Of a stretch of 64,000 nucleotides of DNA, positions 54,728 to 62,482 are shown piece after piece. The notes under the pieces were generated by a model. That model saw only the letters and a program-made list of their open reading frames with translations, ran no database searches and was not told the DNA's origin. The position numbers and the translations under genes were made by a program. The first letter of the stretch is position 1. Each line of letters starts with the position of its first letter. The stretch comes from Spirochaetota bacterium (lineage in GTDB: Bacteria > Spirochaetota > JAAYUW01 > JAOAHJ01): NCBI GenBank assembly GCA_026415295.1, contig JAOAHJ010000017.1, forward strand, positions 1 through 64,000, given 5' to 3'.

Positions 54728-55753
54728 ATGAAAAATTTAAATATTTTACAAGAATCTTTTAATCTTATATTTGAAATTCTCAAAACTGCAATAAATGTAG
54801 AATGTATGATTATAAGATATAAAAGTCAAAAATCAGATTTTTTTAAGATAGTTAAAAATGAAGGTTGTCCCGAAGAATTTTTAAACAAAATGAAATGTAA
54901 AGAAATATATTTTTACAACAATGAATTTAGAATAAATAATAATGCTAATACAGAAGATTGTCCATGTATTCTTATATTAAATAAAGTAAAAGAATTTCTT
55001 GAAAATGAAGAAGTCAAAGAGGTTTTTTCTTTTACAAATTTTGGTTCTTTTTATAGAAATAAAAAACTTTCTTTTGACAAATCAAGTTGCTCTATATTTT
55101 CCTCTCTTGCATTTGTCCCTATAAAAAAACCTTTCTTTGAAAATGAAAATTTTAATTCTTCAAGTTTTATAAATTCTAATAATTTTACAGATAAGAGCAA
55201 TGAAAATAATAATTATGATTCTAATAGTATAAACAATATTAATTATAAAGGTTTTTTCCAATTTTGTGACAAAAAGGAAGATATTTTTAAAAAATTTAAC
55301 ATAAATAAAATAGAAAAAATATCTACCTATTTCTCTCAACTTTTAAATGACATAGAAACTATATTAACTGCAAATATTTTTCAAAAATTCAAAATATTGA
55401 TAGTTGAAGATTCTTATGAAGTTAAAATTATTACTCATAAACTTCTTACAAAACTTGGTTTTAATACTTTATGTTCAGCAAATGGAAAAGAAGCTCTTGA
55501 AATAATAAAAAAAGAGAAAATTGACCTTGTTATAACAGATATTGTTATGCCTTACATAAATGGTCTTGATCTTATAAAGATGTGCTATGAAAAGTATGAA
55601 CATTATGGACCAAAATTTATTATCTTCACAACACACGATGAAAAAGTTTCAAACGATTTTATTAATAAATACAATGTGTTTTCAGTCCTTTCAAAACCCA
55701 TAACAGATCTTAAAAAACTCAAGACAACTATTGAAAGTTGTTTATTAAGCTAA
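54728..55753 (+). CDS. Response regulator with an N-terminal GAF-like region
   Basis: Residues about 220-341 form a receiver domain: ILIVEDS (acidic pocket), LVITDIVMP (phospho-acceptor Asp), FTTHDE (Thr) and LSKPI (Lys). Residues 1-210 look like a diverged sensor region with several Cys (EGCPEEF, DCPCILIL) and an Asn-rich loop; a GAF fold is plausible. No output DNA-binding or enzyme domain follows. AAAAGGA precedes the ATG. No histidine kinase is nearby. Confidence 0.83.
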   Translation: MKNLNILQESFNLIFEILKTAINVECMIIRYKSQKSDFFKIVKNEGCPEEFLNKMKCKEIYFYNNEFRINNNANTEDCPCILILNKVKEFLENEEVKEVFSFTNFGSFYRNKKLSFDKSSCSIFSSLAFVPIKKPFFENENFNSSSFINSNNFTDKSNENNNYDSNSINNINYKGFFQFCDKKEDIFKKFNINKIEKISTYFSQLLNDIETILTANIFQKFKILIVEDSYEVKIITHKLLTKLGFNTLCSANGKEALEIIKKEKIDLVITDIVMPYINGLDLIKMCYEKYEHYGPKFIIFTTHDEKVSNDFINKYNVFSVLSKPITDLKKLKTTIESCLLS

Positions 55754-55831: not shown

Positions 55832-56455
55832 TTAATAAAATCTTTGTAAACCAACAACTTTCCCTACTATCTCCAAATCTTTCCCTCTTACAATAATATC
55901 CTTCAAATTCTTATTTTCAGGATGAAGTATACATATTCCTTCATCTCTTTTTATATACAATCTTTTTAATGTAACTTCCCCATCAACCATTGCAACAACA
56001 ATATCACCCTCCACTACTCCATTTATACCATTATTAACAGGTTCAACTATAATATAATCACCTTCATAAATCCCTGCTTCTATCATTGAATCTCCTCTAA
56101 CTTTTAAAGCAAAATAGTTATCTTTAGGAAATTTTGTCCTATCCACAACTAACTCACCTTCTATATCCACCTCAGAAAATACAGGAGTTCCTGCAACTAT
56201 CCTTCCAAGAACTGGTATTTTTTTCTTTTTTAATATTTCAATCGCTTCTTCTGTTAAAATTATACTTCTTGATGCCCCATCCTTTCTTCCAATATAACCT
56301 TTATTCTGAAGTCTTAAAAGAAACCCATAGCATGTTTTTATATTTACATCTAATATTTCTGAAAGCTCTATAATAGTTGGGGGATAACCATTTTTTTTTA
56401 TAAAATCATAAATTTTTCTCAAAACTTCTTCCTGCCTTTTTGTTAACTCTTCCAT
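55832..56455 (-). CDS. lexA: LexA repressor
   Basis: SOS repressor, self-cleaving on contact with RecA filaments. The winged-helix N-terminus (LTKRQEEVLRKIYDFIKKNG, PPTIIELSEIL) is followed by the Ala-Gly cleavage site in GRIVAGTPVF, the catalytic Ser in GDSMIEAGI and the Lys in GEVTLKRLY. 207 residues is normal. AGGGG precedes the ATG. It is the last gene of the leftward imuB-like/dnaE/lexA set, 30 bases after dnaE, so it is probably under its own control through the shared promoter. Confidence 0.97.
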   Translation of the reverse strand: MEELTKRQEEVLRKIYDFIKKNGYPPTIIELSEILDVNIKTCYGFLLRLQNKGYIGRKDGASRSIILTEEAIEILKKKKIPVLGRIVAGTPVFSEVDIEGELVVDRTKFPKDNYFALKVRGDSMIEAGIYEGDYIIVEPVNNGINGVVEGDIVVAMVDGEVTLKRLYIKRDEGICILHPENKNLKDIIVRGKDLEIVGKVVGLQRFY

Positions 56456-56485
56456 AACTAACCCCTAAAATGAAATAATAAATTA

Positions 56486-59400
56486 TTATAAAAAAACATA
56501 ATAAAATAGATCTGTAAAAACACTCAAATTTTTAAATATTGCTTTTAAGTCAATTAGCTCATAAGTTTCAAGATCAAATTTAACAATACTTTTTAACTTA
56601 AGCATAAAAAACATACTATTTTTAATCTTAAAAATAAAACGTTCATACTTATCGGGGAAAATAACCACTTCAAAAAAATCCTTTCCATCAAAAAATGTTG
56701 CAAAACCCATCTTTTCACCTTTTCCAGTAAAGGCTGGTCTTCCTGTAATAAAAAATCCTATTTTTAATAAAATTTCATCTTTTAATTTTAAACAATTTAA
56801 ATTTTTATTAAAAACTTCATTATAAATTTTCAAATCCTTATCAAAGGATCTAATTTTCTTTGTATATGTTTGGTTAAAAGATCCAAACCTTTCAAAATCA
56901 ATCTTCACCAGTAAATCAATAATATCAAAAGGGGTTTTTCCTATAAAAAAACCATAATATTTATATTCAAAAAGAAAGTTGGACAATAAATTTTCACAAG
57001 CCAAGTTTAAATGCTTTATTTCATGGCTTTTGTTAAAAATATTAATATTATCTCTTTCTATTTCTATATTATTTTTTATATTTTTGTAACACTTAAGAAT
57101 GTAATAAAAGAGATCAAACTTGTTCAATTTATATACAAATGGGTCAAAAAAACCTACAAGGGCAAGCTTTATAAACTTATCAAATTTTTCTGAATTTTTT
57201 TTTAACCTTTTTTGTCTAAAGCAAATATATGAGCTGAAAAAATCTCTAAAAAAATATTCTATATTTTCTGAAGAAATATTTTCAAAATCTTTCTCTTTGA
57301 TTTTAAAATATTCACTACAAGATTTTTGATAATATTTAAAAAATTCAAGATCACATTCATCTAAAAAACTCAAATGGTCAAGACCTATAATAATAAATTT
57401 TTCTCCATTTTCTTTTTCTAAAACTTGAGTTTTTGTACTGTAAAGTCTTATATTACTTTTTAAAAACCTTATACCTTCTGTGCAACCTTTATAAATATAT
57501 GCTGCTGTTGGATAGTATCCACCTTTATTTTCTATCACTGATGCATAAAAAAGTTCAGGATAATAAATTTTTAAATATAAAAGTTTATAAGAAAGTATAG
57601 CATAAGAAGCAGAATGTGCTTTACAAAAAGAATATCCTGCAAATGATTCCATATATTTCCATAAAAGATAAACTTTTTTTTTGCTATAACCTTTAGATAA
57701 AGCTCCCTTAATAAAATCTTCTTTAAGCTCATTTATTTTTTCTTTTGATCTTAGTTTTCCACTCATTCCTTTTCTTAAAAGATCAGCTTTTTCATAAGAA
57801 AGTCCACCAATGTTATGTGCAACTTTCATAACATCTTCTTGATAAATCATTATTCCAAAAGTTTCTTCTAAAATATCTTTAAGCTCAGGTATAACATAAT
57901 CAACTTTATCAGGATTATTTTTGTAAAATATATATTTATCCTTCATTCCAGATTCAGAAACCCCTGGTCTTATAACAGATGATGCTGCAACTAATTCAAG
58001 ATAATTTTTACATTTAAGTTGCTTTAAAAGCCCTCTCATAGCTGGGGATTCTATATAAAAGCATCCAAGTGAGTCTCCAATTTGAAGTTTTTCTGATATT
58101 TTTTTATCATCTATTATACCAGAAATCTCTATTGGTTTAATAAGTTTTAAGTAGTCTAATTTTTCTCTTTTACATTTTTTGTTTTTAAGATAAAAAAGAC
58201 TATCTGAAAAAACCCCAAGTGCCCTTTGGGAAAGAATATCTATTTTTATAAGACCTGTATTTTCAATAGAATACATATCAAAACCTGTTATCAAAAATCC
58301 TTTAACACCATTGTATATAGGACAAAAATCAGTTATCTTCGAAGGAGCTATACATATACCACCAGGGTGAGTTCCTATGCCATAAGGTAGATCAATAATT
58401 CTTTCAACAAAGAAAAACAGATTCTCAAAATAATATTTGCAATAATCTTTAAATCTTTTCTTTAAATCAGAAATAGAGTCTCCCCATCCTATCAACTTCG
58501 AATATCTTGATATTTCAGACTCAGGTATACCAAGATATCTTGAAACAATACGAAATGCACCTCTTAACCCATGCTTTATCCTTGTTCCTATCATTGCACA
58601 ATTTTTGTATTCTTTTTCTTCAAATTCTTTAAGTTCACAATACATATCAAAGTTTTCACTTTCTTTACTAATGTATTTTTTAAGCAAGTTTTTACAAAAA
58701 TTAAAAAACTCTCTATTAAAGATCGATTTTATTACAAAATCTCTATCTTTCCATGAAAAATCAAGATCAATGTCAGGAGGTTCATCTCTCCCATAATTTA
58801 GAAACCTTTCAAAAAAAAGATCGTACTTTACAGGATCAACCTGAGTTATATCAAGCAAATAAGAAACAAGAGATGATGCTGCAGAACCTCTTCCAATATA
58901 AGGAATCCCTTTTTCTTTTACATAAAGAGTTAAAAAATATACAAAAAGAAAGTAGGAGCAAAGGTTTTTATCCTTTATTATCTTGTATTCATAAGACAGT
59001 CTTTCATAATATCTACAATCTTTTGAATTATTAAAAAAAATATTATTTTGTATTTTGCTAAAAAGAATATTATATAGCAATATCTCATCTTTCTCTTTGC
59101 TTCCAGAAATATTTATAAAAACATAATCATTTTTTCTAAAATTTTTTAATATATCTATATCTTTAACAAAATCGAAAATAGAATCAAAAATTTCTCTGCT
59201 TCTGCTCCCATATACCTTATAAAGCAAAATGTTTAACTCATCATAGGTTGATAAAACTGGTTTTCTTATAGAAAGATCTATAATATCTCTATCAATTAAT
59301 CTTTTTATAACTCTATTTTCATCAGAAGAGATTATTATATCAAAAACTGTTATACCATCCCTCTTTTCGAAATCCTCTTTTTTAAAAGAAGCAAAAAAAA

Positions 59401-59896
59401 GAGGCAAAACATTAAAGTATTTATCTTTTAAATAGAAGAAATCCCCCTTAAATATCCTTCCTTCAAATACACCAAGAAAACGATCTTTTAAACTTGCAAA
59501 CCTTTTAACAATACTCTCCTCATCAAAAAAAACAAATTTAACCCCATCAAAATAGTCTTTATCTGCTTTTAGTTTATCTTCAATAAAATCAGAAGGAGTT
59601 TTATAACCTAAAGCTCTATAAGAAATAAGTTCAAAAAAAATATTTTTCCTTTCCCAATCTTTTAAAAATACTAACATATTCTTATCTACATCTTCCCCTT
59701 GAAGTTCAACTCCGACAATAGGTTTAACATTATTTTCTTTTGCAAGTTTAATAAAGTTCCATATATCAAAAACATTTTCATAATCTGTTAATGTTACAAA
59801 ACAGGTTTTACCTTTTAAGCAACTATATTCAACAATATCCTGTATCTTAAGAGTACTTTGATAAAATGAATTTATACTTTTGCACCACAAAAACAA
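56486..59896 (-). CDS. dnaE2: Divergent DNA polymerase III alpha (DnaE2/ImuC-like)
   Basis: C-family DNA polymerase of 1136 residues. The catalytic core is present: IPYIGRGSAASSLVSYLL, PPDIDLDF, THPGGICIAPS, LRKGMSGK and AGYSFCKAHSASYAILSYK. In the PHP domain the usual HxH and TDH metal ligands read WCKS and TDY, so that site should be dead. GGYYPTAAYIYKG recalls the GFYSP stretch of error-prone DnaE2, and the C-terminus keeps an OB-like part (ITGRPAFTGKGEKMGFATF). The start is TTG; its AGGAG site lies in the end of the preceding gene. Linkage to LexA favours a damage-induced translesion role; a replicative role is less likely. Confidence 0.85.
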   Translation of the reverse strand: MFLWCKSINSFYQSTLKIQDIVEYSCLKGKTCFVTLTDYENVFDIWNFIKLAKENNVKPIVGVELQGEDVDKNMLVFLKDWERKNIFFELISYRALGYKTPSDFIEDKLKADKDYFDGVKFVFFDEESIVKRFASLKDRFLGVFEGRIFKGDFFYLKDKYFNVLPLFFASFKKEDFEKRDGITVFDIIISSDENRVIKRLIDRDIIDLSIRKPVLSTYDELNILLYKVYGSRSREIFDSIFDFVKDIDILKNFRKNDYVFINISGSKEKDEILLYNILFSKIQNNIFFNNSKDCRYYERLSYEYKIIKDKNLCSYFLFVYFLTLYVKEKGIPYIGRGSAASSLVSYLLDITQVDPVKYDLFFERFLNYGRDEPPDIDLDFSWKDRDFVIKSIFNREFFNFCKNLLKKYISKESENFDMYCELKEFEEKEYKNCAMIGTRIKHGLRGAFRIVSRYLGIPESEISRYSKLIGWGDSISDLKKRFKDYCKYYFENLFFFVERIIDLPYGIGTHPGGICIAPSKITDFCPIYNGVKGFLITGFDMYSIENTGLIKIDILSQRALGVFSDSLFYLKNKKCKREKLDYLKLIKPIEISGIIDDKKISEKLQIGDSLGCFYIESPAMRGLLKQLKCKNYLELVAASSVIRPGVSESGMKDKYIFYKNNPDKVDYVIPELKDILEETFGIMIYQEDVMKVAHNIGGLSYEKADLLRKGMSGKLRSKEKINELKEDFIKGALSKGYSKKKVYLLWKYMESFAGYSFCKAHSASYAILSYKLLYLKIYYPELFYASVIENKGGYYPTAAYIYKGCTEGIRFLKSNIRLYSTKTQVLEKENGEKFIIIGLDHLSFLDECDLEFFKYYQKSCSEYFKIKEKDFENISSENIEYFFRDFFSSYICFRQKRLKKNSEKFDKFIKLALVGFFDPFVYKLNKFDLFYYILKCYKNIKNNIEIERDNINIFNKSHEIKHLNLACENLLSNFLFEYKYYGFFIGKTPFDIIDLLVKIDFERFGSFNQTYTKKIRSFDKDLKIYNEVFNKNLNCLKLKDEILLKIGFFITGRPAFTGKGEKMGFATFFDGKDFFEVVIFPDKYERFIFKIKNSMFFMLKLKSIVKFDLETYELIDLKAIFKNLSVFTDLFYYVFL

Positions 59897-59898
59897 AA

Positions 59899-61017
59899 CT
59901 ATTCTCCTGTTCTTAAAATTTTTCCATATTTATTAAAAAGATAGCTTACTGCATCAAAAAGTCTTCTATCTTTGTTCTCATTTTTACCAAAAAGAGTTTC
60001 TTCTTCAAAATCAACTCCTTTATAAATATCAAGTACAACCTTTTTTATATTTACATCTCTCATTTTGTTTTTTATGATAATTCTTTTAATCTTTTCTATT
60101 GTAAAAATAAATGATTTTTCTTCATCGCTTCTTTGAACCACCCCTGCTTTGTAAATCTTACCATCACTATAAACTATTGATATAGAAATTTTTCTAAAAA
60201 ATATCCTTTTTATACTCAAAAAATAGAATAAAGCTTCTTTAAAATGTTTAAAATCATCTAGTTCAGTCCTCTTCATCCCTGAAAACTCAAAAATAAATCT
60301 CTCAAAATCTTCATTTTTTGACCAATTTCTAATATCAAATCCAAAAATTTGATGAAAGATTCTGAAAAATGAAAACTTTTTTTCAAAAAAACTATTAAAT
60401 AAAACTTTGCTCTTTTCACAAACATCAATAATAGAACTTAAATCAGCAAAAAGTTTACTTTTCTCATAAGGTTTAAAAGAGGAGGTTAAAAGTGAGATAA
60501 AATCTCTTTTTGCCTCAAAGGAAAAAGTCAGAATAAAAGAGAGAGGAAAATTGAAAAGATTTTTGTATTTAAAAGAGATGTATGGAAAAATATCAAGAAA
60601 AAATACTTTTGACAAAAAAACTTCTGGTTCAATAATATAAATAAAACCCGGTGAATCGAAAACTCTGCCAATAGAAAATGAACAGAAAGGATCAGGAGAA
60701 ACAACTAATTTGAACTCTAAATTTTCAAATTTTTTATCTAAAATATCTTTAATTCCCTCTTTTAAATCCTTTTTAAATTTACTATTAAAATCTATATTAA
60801 ATATTCTTTTTAACTTTTCTTCAAAATCAAAAAAGAAGAAAGGATCATTTACAAGATTGCCATAATTATCAACAAAATAGATTAAATAGTCATTATTTTC
60901 AAGAAAAGTAGCTTTAATTCCACACTCTTCAAATATACTTTGCAATTTTAGAGTAAATGTGTAAAAAAACAAACTAACCTGATCAAATTTTTTTAATATT
61001 TTAAGATACCCAAACAT
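59899..61017 (-). CDS. imuB: ImuB-like degenerate Y-family polymerase
   Basis: A 372-residue protein. Its last ~110 residues fit the little-finger domain of Y-family polymerases (ISIVYSDGKIYKAGVVQR, then IKKVVLDIYKG and DRRLFDAVSYLFNKYGKIL). The middle fits the palm/thumb (LEFKLVVSPDPFCSFSIGRV). The N-terminal palm with the first catalytic Asp and the SIDE motif is absent; the aligned stretch reads LENNDYLIYFVD. The start is secure (GGGGAAG before ATG), so the shortening is real. Loss of catalysis is the mark of ImuB. It is 2 bases upstream of the DnaE start. Identification is by pattern and context only. Confidence 0.6.
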   Translation of the reverse strand: MFGYLKILKKFDQVSLFFYTFTLKLQSIFEECGIKATFLENNDYLIYFVDNYGNLVNDPFFFFDFEEKLKRIFNIDFNSKFKKDLKEGIKDILDKKFENLEFKLVVSPDPFCSFSIGRVFDSPGFIYIIEPEVFLSKVFFLDIFPYISFKYKNLFNFPLSFILTFSFEAKRDFISLLTSSFKPYEKSKLFADLSSIIDVCEKSKVLFNSFFEKKFSFFRIFHQIFGFDIRNWSKNEDFERFIFEFSGMKRTELDDFKHFKEALFYFLSIKRIFFRKISISIVYSDGKIYKAGVVQRSDEEKSFIFTIEKIKRIIIKNKMRDVNIKKVVLDIYKGVDFEEETLFGKNENKDRRLFDAVSYLFNKYGKILRTGE

Positions 61018-61036
61018 AAATCTTCCCCTTTTAAAA

Positions 61037-61064
61037 ATAATAGGCCAAAATATTTTGGTGTCAA
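61037..61064 (-). promoter_or_regulatory. Promoter and candidate LexA operator of the imuB-dnaE-lexA operon
   Basis: On the minus strand TTGACA (61064-61059) and TATTAT (61042-61037) are separated by 16 bases, a near-consensus sigma-70 promoter. The spacer holds the perfect 14-base palindrome CCAAAATATTTTGG (61045-61058), directly next to the -35 box. This is a classic repressor position. Since the operon encodes LexA, an SOS box is the simplest reading. The first ATG lies 20 bases from the -10 box. Confidence 0.75.
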
Positions 61065-61110
61065 GTTTAAATTTTATTATTTACTTTATTTTTATTTTTG
61101 TTAAATTTTG

Positions 61111-61340
61111 GTATGAGGTGCTTATAAAGCTTAATAGGGAATGAGGTGAAAATCCTCAACGCACCTGGGCACTGTAAGAAGGAGTGTAAACTTACTAAAA
61201 GGTAAGTTTATGTAAGTATGCTTTATGTCACTGTGTATACAAGAAATTTTACAAAATGCAGTCATCTGCAATTTCTTGTATATATGGGAAGACATAAAAC
61301 AATTTAATCCTTCAAGTCAGGAGACCTGCCTCAGATTAAA
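61111..61340 (+). ncRNA. Cobalamin (B12) riboswitch
   Basis: Conserved parts in order: GAGGTGC (61115-61121), AGGGAATGAGGTGAAAATCC (61136-61155), GCACTGTAAGAAGGAG (61169-61184) and the B12 box AAGTCAGGAGACCTGCCT (61314-61331). Between them is a variable extension with a long stem (about 61233-61285) built on ATACAAGAAAT and ATTTCTTGTAT. A terminator-like hairpin follows, so B12 should reduce expression of the binding protein downstream. Confidence 0.92.
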
Positions 61341-61345
61341 TAAAC

Positions 61346-61372
61346 TCTCCACCAGGGTTAATGGAGATTTTT
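61346..61372 (+). terminator. Riboswitch expression-platform hairpin
   Basis: TCTCCA (61346-61351) pairs with TGGAGA (61362-61367) and is followed by TTTTT. Located just after the B12 box, it is the likely off-state terminator of the riboswitch. The loop ACCAGGG-type sequence could also take part in loop-loop contact with the aptamer. Confidence 0.65.
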
Positions 61373-61480: not shown

Positions 61481-62482
61481 ATGAAAAAATTATTTAAGAA
61501 ATCCATTTTACTATTAACAATTTTTGTTTTCCTATTCTTTAGTTTTGCTGTATTTTTTGCTGGTAAAAGTGGATCTTCTTCTGATTTAAACAAAACAACT
61601 CAACAAAATGTTGCTATTGACTCACTAAAAAGAAATGTTGAGATTAAGGATTACCAGAGAGTTGGTATTTTAAACCCTGCTGTTATTAGAAACCTTGCAA
61701 TAGCTGGATATAACTTTAAAAATGTTATTGGAGTAGATTCTTTTACAAAAGATACCTATTTTAACCAAAAATATTTAGATCCATCAAATTTTAAAAACTC
61801 CATTTTCGCTAAATATAACTATAAAGAATTGCCATTAAAATCTGTTGAAATAATAGGAGATTTTAATGGTCCTAATGTTGAAAAAATTGTCTCATTAAAA
61901 ATTGATCTATTAGTTATCGATGTATCTTTCCCACAAAAGATAAAAGATCAACTTGATCAATTAAAGATTAATTATTTTGTTTTCTCTACATACAATACTT
62001 ATGATAACTTAAAAAATGATATTAATAACCTTTATAAGCTTTTTAAAATTGATCAAAAAGCTATAAATGATATAAACGGTTCAATTGGTAAACTTGAAAA
62101 AGATCTTATTGAACTTGCAAATAAATTCAAAAATAAGAAGGTTTTAATCATTGTATGGTATGATAATGGTTTTATGTGTGCTGGAAAAGATTCATTTCTA
62201 TCATCATTTTTTGAAAAATTTGGCTTCATTAATGTCATAAATACAAATGGCTATCCTGTTATATCAGATGAAACTTTTATAAACTTAAACCCAGATCATA
62301 TACTTGTTGCCTCTTCATATATGAATGTTGATGTTCTTAAAAAAGATATATATAAAAATATAAATGCAATAAAGAAAGGCTCTATTGTAACTATAGATGC
62401 TGAATTTGAAAATAAACTCTTACAACCTTCAAAAGAATCATGGGAAGCTTACAAGGAAATTTTTGGAAAGTTAAAAGATTAA
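61481..62482 (+). CDS. Periplasmic substrate-binding protein, probably for cobalamin/corrinoid
   Basis: Binding protein of the TroA/BtuF type. A signal peptide (about 1-27) is followed by two alpha/beta lobes: IEIKDYQRVGILNP-type start, VEKIVSLKIDLLVIDVS, a long linking helix (SIGKLEKDLIELANKFKNKK), and INLNPDHILVAS. No lipobox Cys is seen. The cobalamin riboswitch upstream argues for a B12 ligand rather than haem or siderophore. No permease or ATPase gene follows; they must be elsewhere. GGAGG precedes the ATG. Confidence 0.85.
   Translation: MKKLFKKSILLLTIFVFLFFSFAVFFAGKSGSSSDLNKTTQQNVAIDSLKRNVEIKDYQRVGILNPAVIRNLAIAGYNFKNVIGVDSFTKDTYFNQKYLDPSNFKNSIFAKYNYKELPLKSVEIIGDFNGPNVEKIVSLKIDLLVIDVSFPQKIKDQLDQLKINYFVFSTYNTYDNLKNDINNLYKLFKIDQKAINDINGSIGKLEKDLIELANKFKNKKVLIIVWYDNGFMCAGKDSFLSSFFEKFGFINVINTNGYPVISDETFINLNPDHILVASSYMNVDVLKKDIYKNINAIKKGSIVTIDAEFENKLLQPSKESWEAYKEIFGKLKD

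Follow-up and report, generated by a model that had tools for sequence, protein, structure and literature searches.

Positions 55832-61017 of the 64,000-nucleotide stretch analysed here (contig JAOAHJ010000017.1 of assembly GCA_026415295.1, from a Spirochaetota bacterium; hereafter the window) carry three minus-strand genes that probably form a self-regulated, damage-inducible translesion operon, namely an ImuA-less mutasome composed of a Y-family protein (PolY) and a DnaE2-type polymerase and equipped with its own LexA. The sequences show an operon, DnaE paralogy, loss of catalytic residues, a conserved and unique candidate operator, a lack of detectable ImuA and a single LexA. An earlier sequence-only reading had proposed a LexA-linked mutagenesis-type operon at this site, a description that agrees with the gene content, gene order, residues and operator conservation reported below. 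The features are the following.

61037..61064, minus strand: sigma70-type operon promoter, TTGACA-16-TATTAT, 11/12 match
61045..61058, no strand assigned: perfect palindrome CCAAAATATTTTGG, proposed LexA operator, within the -35/-10 spacer
59899..61017, minus strand: polY-like gene, first in the operon; 372 aa, catalytically dead Y-family relative
59920..60237, minus strand: little-finger domain and C-tail of the PolY-like protein (residues 261-366, hmmsearch domain coordinates), its only demonstrably Y-family part
59989..60003, minus strand: EETLF, which aligns with the beta-clamp-binding motif (QLxLF) of the Y family in a comparison with cassette PolYs bearing QLxLF-like motifs
59902..59961, minus strand: C-terminal LFDAVSYLFNKYGKILRTGE, RecA-N-terminus-like tail, from profile alignment, with weak direct similarity to the N-terminus of the genome's own RecA
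56486..59896, minus strand: dnaE2-type gene, 1136 aa, TTG start; PHP, polymerase core and OB fold, no C-terminal domain (CTD)
55832..56455, minus strand: lexA, 207 aa; winged helix-turn-helix (wHTH) and S24 protease, with cleavage-site AG, Ser and Lys conserved

Calling of open reading frames (ORFs) gave three leftward-transcribed genes with intergenic gaps of 2 and 30 bp, in a window of 24% GC. The promoter sequence at 61064-61037 is the top promoter-like match within 55.5-61.6 kb and lies ~20 bp ahead of the first ATG, that of the polY-like gene; ORF coordinates and promoter match thus uphold the three closely spaced genes behind a single promoter that had been described. Comparison within the order covered the window's own genome (G000) and three others (G005, G018 and G030). 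G005 and G018, which belong to a second family of the order, have the same polY-dnaE-lexA arrangement, the dnaE of G018 being split over two contigs. Since the gene order recurs in two other genomes, the arrangement is not a product of chance, and the terminal position of lexA, also part of the earlier description, is confirmed.

Pfam and NCBIfam profiles identify the 1136-aa product of the middle gene as a DnaE alpha subunit, with scores far under the replicative equivalog cut-offs. Together with its G005 and G018 counterparts it forms a clade of its own (100/100 support) that sits outside the DnaE1 clade (100/100) and outside proteobacterial DnaE2, and a tree test rejected constraining it with DnaE1 (p-AU 0.0015). 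Alignment revealed that the PHP metal residues of DnaE1s (HxH, TDH, E, H, C, NDNH) are lost and the polymerase aspartates PDIDLD and KID kept, that the GRGSAAS signature and HPGG match the DnaE2 type, and that the protein ends about 40 aa past its OB match (1058-1096), leaving no tau-binding CTD. Because these features fit published criteria for DnaE2, namely a degenerate PHP metal site, intact polymerase aspartates and no CTD (PMC3919608), we class the protein as DnaE2-type by its features, on a separate branch. The genome's second dnaE (C23, about 39 kb) is open and intact over 1156 aa and is an ordinary DnaE1 by tree. Both the non-standard character attributed to the operon DnaE and the expected presence of a second, replicative alpha subunit were therefore verified. 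Alternatively, the polymerase could have arisen by duplication of the replicative alpha subunit and serve in ordinary replication, in a DnaE3-like division of labour. Such a role would agree with the intact polymerase active site, and the tree contained no DnaE3 references; however, the placement outside DnaE1, the missing CTD, the degenerate PHP and the linkage to LexA and a dead PolY all argue otherwise, and DnaE3 always accompanies PolC (PMC3919608), whereas a PF07733 search of G000 recovered only two C-family polymerases, the operon DnaE and the C23 DnaE1. We regard this alternative as extremely improbable.

Outside the phylum, the nearest relative found is the DnaE of a Chryseobacterium plasmid, encoded in a LexA-family/dinB-dnaE cassette (L122); its support of 82/72 is too weak for a transfer to be claimed. 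A search of viral contigs returned DnaE genes at ~30-34% identity. A search for related loci in genome contigs returned solely a Pelagibacteraceae DnaE1-like gene, which was discarded, as it clusters with E. coli DnaE1.

The 372-aa product of the first gene had no significant match in Pfam, NCBIfam or PDB sequence searches, and a phylum-wide search with this protein alone retrieved only itself and chance-level matches. Y-family profiles were made from cassette PolYs and DinBs, with the query proteins excluded, and searched against 382 ORFs. They matched the 372-aa protein at E values of 4.7e-6, 1.6e-6 and 8.6e-8 and its G005 counterpart at 6e-8, with no unrelated ORF below 0.2. The aligned C-tail runs to YGKILRTGE, whereas residues 1-266 could not be distinguished from chance when set against the rest of the Y-family fold. 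Y-family kinship is demonstrable only for the C-terminal third (E about 1e-6); of the proposal that the protein keeps both thumb and little finger, the little finger and C-tail stand, whereas the thumb is not detectable and is unsupported, since residues 1-260 match nothing. The G005 and G018 PolYs are full length (418 and 458 aa); in the alignment they have N in place of the motif-I D and lack the DE pair. The other PolYs from the phylum's polY-dnaE cassettes that could be aligned have likewise lost the catalytic D and the DE pair, which are retained in control DinBs and in the Chryseobacterium PolY. The motif I region is not recognisable in the 372-aa protein, which diverges fast (26% to G005). 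Its RecA-N-terminus-like tail, of a kind proposed as a dock for RecA or ImuA (PMC6511836), aligns in the profile, with a direct score that is convincing only in G005, weak in the window and weaker in G018. No IMS-domain (PF00817) Y-family polymerase was found in G000, and the other three genomes of the order carry DinB.

These properties might also be those of a decaying polY remnant with a non-functional product, in which case LexA and DnaE2 would still be made and DnaE2 would act alone or through another clamp adaptor. Decay would fit the window copy, in which neither the catalytic centre nor the greater part of the fold is detectable, and its fast divergence. We nevertheless judge it unlikely: a 372-codon frame stays free of stops at 24% GC, the C-terminal third is recognisable, the 2-bp spacing to dnaE is intact and the polY gene is kept in three genomes.

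The PolY proteins of the window, G005 and G018 end at the RecA-like tail, with no ImuB-C domain seen in them, no genome-wide search for this domain having been made. By hhalign, the dead Y-family proteins of the phylum's sister cassettes are nearer DinB/PolY (E 1e-50) than proteobacterial ImuB (E 8e-18). In all four genomes of the order the ImuA profile NF033429 matches only RecA, as anticipated by the sequence-only reading, which had noted ImuA as missing, and the window's genome yielded no RecA-family protein other than RecA. Given no ImuB-C domain, no ImuA shown in the genome and sister PolYs nearer DinB/PolY, the earlier term ImuB-like is right as to an inactive Y-family relative but too specific as to ImuB, and 'inactive PolY (ImuY-like)' appears the safer name. 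A true ImuB-type mutasome, its ImuA and ImuB-C encoded elsewhere or diverged beyond detection, would account for function and gene partners that resemble imuB-dnaE2, and the evidence on ImuB-C is confined to the proteins named above. It is, however, very unlikely, as the ImuA profile finds RecA alone, the full-length relatives stop at the C-tail and the published ImuA-less variants likewise have no ImuA genome-wide (PMC6511836).

The assignment of the third gene to LexA is secure, with a TIGR00498 score of 179.8 bits, a full wHTH-S24 architecture and the AG, GDSM and K residues of cleavage and catalysis in place by alignment. By PF01726, G000, G005 and G018 have one LexA apiece. The palindrome CCAAAATATTTTGG is identical in G005 and reads CCAATATATATTGG in G018. 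Each of these three genomes contains the exact pattern CCAAWATATWTTGG a single time, always between the -35 and -10 of the cassette promoter, against an expectation of ~0.11 per genome; G030 does not contain it. Sites with a single mismatch were rejected as regulatory, all those checked but one lying inside ORFs, and no operator copy was present in the recA upstream sequences examined. Given one operator per genome, mismatched sites mostly in ORFs and none at recA, the simplest reading is that LexA apparently controls one operon only. The palindrome is unlike the LexA operators of Leptospira, TTTGN5CAAA and TTGTAN10TACAA (PMC3789691). It might instead belong to another regulator, with lexA merely co-transcribed: its assignment to LexA is a prediction, and LexA motifs are highly variable and not readable from the protein. 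Its conservation at the LexA-encoding operon only, in the promoter spacer and once per genome, and its absence where LexA is missing make this quite unlikely.

Taken as a PolY-DnaE2 mutasome under its own LexA, the operon would work as follows; occupancy of the palindrome by LexA, induction by damage, the mutagenic outcome and the protein contacts are drawn from knowledge of SOS and mutasomes. LexA dimers on the palindrome between -35 and -10 would block the single promoter and keep the whole operon off, lexA included, until RecA filaments formed upon damage trigger LexA self-cleavage and allow expression. DnaE2, without PHP proofreading metals and the tau-binding CTD, would then carry out error-prone synthesis. 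The dead PolY would do no polymerisation; through little finger, clamp motif and RecA-like tail it would instead serve as an adaptor, recruiting DnaE2 to the sliding clamp and to RecA, with RecA substituting for ImuA. As the last product of the operon, LexA would re-establish repression after the damage clears.

Several observations weigh against this interpretation. Without an operator copy, recA itself would not be LexA-induced, and a degenerate LexA site at another locus could have escaped detection. No LexA was found by PF01726 in G030, which is also without the cassette DnaE, PolY and operator; this lack could be an assembly loss, since G030 is only 89% complete. The matchless residues 1-260 leave room for decay of the 372-aa gene or for a different function, and a single-sequence AlphaFold prediction of its product had a pLDDT of 34 and gave no usable model. 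The RecA-like tail of the window copy is weak, its score being equalled by 6/264 unrelated ORF tails.

PolY-DnaE2 operons without ImuA, frequently including lexA, were described in 2019 (Timinskas and Venclovas, PMC6511836), so that ImuA-less PolY-DnaE2(-LexA) operons as such are already published. These systems (Bacteroidetes PolY2-DnaE2, Cellulophaga; Streptomyces scDinB2-DnaE2) resemble the window in joining a Y-family protein and DnaE2 in one operon, often with lexA, and in having neither ImuA nor ImuB-C (PMC6511836). The Chryseobacterium plasmid cassette L122 likewise pairs a divergent LexA-family regulator with dinB-dnaE. In contrast, the Bacteroidetes PolY is active, whereas that of the window is dead and without detectable palm, fingers or thumb, and the window's lexA is last. 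Deinococcus has an induced lexA-imuY-imuB-C-dnaE2 operon that shares the absence of ImuA, the inactive Y-family protein, LexA within the operon and a recA outside LexA control (for the window, inferred), but differs in its stand-alone ImuB-C, a lexA that comes first and an ImuY not reported as eroded (PMC8072749). The proteobacterial lexA-imuA-imuB-dnaE2 and mycobacterial imuA'-imuB/dnaE2 cassettes also combine LexA linkage with a dead Y-family adaptor and DnaE2; the window differs in having no ImuA or ImuB-C, in placing lexA last rather than first, and in a DnaE outside the proteobacterial DnaE2 clade. What is new is the placement of lexA at the end, the erosion of the Y-family partner and an apparently one-operon LexA regulon; the absence of ImuB-C is a further difference.

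Within the phylum, the loci surveyed were those fetched around DnaE genes without a CTD in the phylum sample. They comprise lexA-polY-dnaE cassettes with lexA first (G003, G173 and G086), DUF72-polY-dnaE cassettes (twice in G211, and in G260, G096, G142, G193 and G081) and polY-dnaE cassettes (G067, G046, G028, G011 and G039). In G003, G173, G086, G211, G260, G096, G142 and G193, as in the window, a dead PolY precedes a DnaE without a CTD, and no ImuA gene was found alongside; in contrast to the window, their PolY is full length with QLxLF-like and RFG tails, and lexA is first or absent. The dead-PolY-DnaE2 pair is thus widespread in the phylum, with the lexA-last, palindrome-controlled form seen only in the window's order, in three genomes. 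The earlier view of the layout as unusual for a spirochaete consequently holds for lexA being last but not for the pair itself, and, with such pairs common and three loci lexA-first, the real oddities are the position of lexA and the extreme erosion of PolY.

The lexA promoters of G003, G173 and G086 bear direct repeats (TTTCAGTAAACTTTCAG, TTCGGTTAATATTCGG) and not the CCAAWATATWTTGG palindrome; those at L131:2950-3260, L142:3030-3300 and L146:2480-2760 (TTTCAGTAAACTTTCAGTATA; TTCGGTTAATATTCGGTTATA) are candidate direct-repeat LexA operators. The DUF72-PolY(dead)-DnaE2 cassettes recur (L136, L139, L141, L145, L156 and L164), and the two in G211 (L136 and L137) are near-identical, each adjoining a divergent gene that weakly resembles LexA. 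DUF72 is not known to have a role in mutasomes. Among the DinBs of the phylum, those at L040, L044, L048 and in about 20 other genomes of family f18 continue in frame, with no intervening stop, into a long downstream ORF (open frames of about 1350-2110 aa), the C-terminus running straight into what seem to be a signal peptide and a large exported protein. This looks like a DinB fusion or read-through conserved among treponeme-like genomes.

Two further units flank the operon. A cobalamin riboswitch (61099-61347, plus strand, 82.1 bits) lies ahead of a gene for a btuF-like periplasmic binding protein (61481-62482) as a separate divergent unit upstream. Adjoining lexA, 54728-55753 (plus strand) encodes a 341-aa protein whose one recognised part is a C-terminal response-regulator receiver domain.

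A more far-reaching possibility, which we advance tentatively, is that a minimal mutasome, with PolY cut to a little finger, clamp motif and RecA dock and its N-terminal two thirds unrecognisable, has the genome's sole LexA devoted to its one operon through a single operator, so that SOS would have shrunk to a mutagenesis switch. If so, the operon would show how small a part of a Y-family protein suffices for a DnaE2 mutasome, would support a Y-family role in docking to clamp and RecA rather than in DNA synthesis, and would indicate that RecA can take the place of ImuA. It would also offer an apparent natural case of LexA governing one mutagenesis operon, which would help to disentangle SOS mutagenesis from SOS repair.

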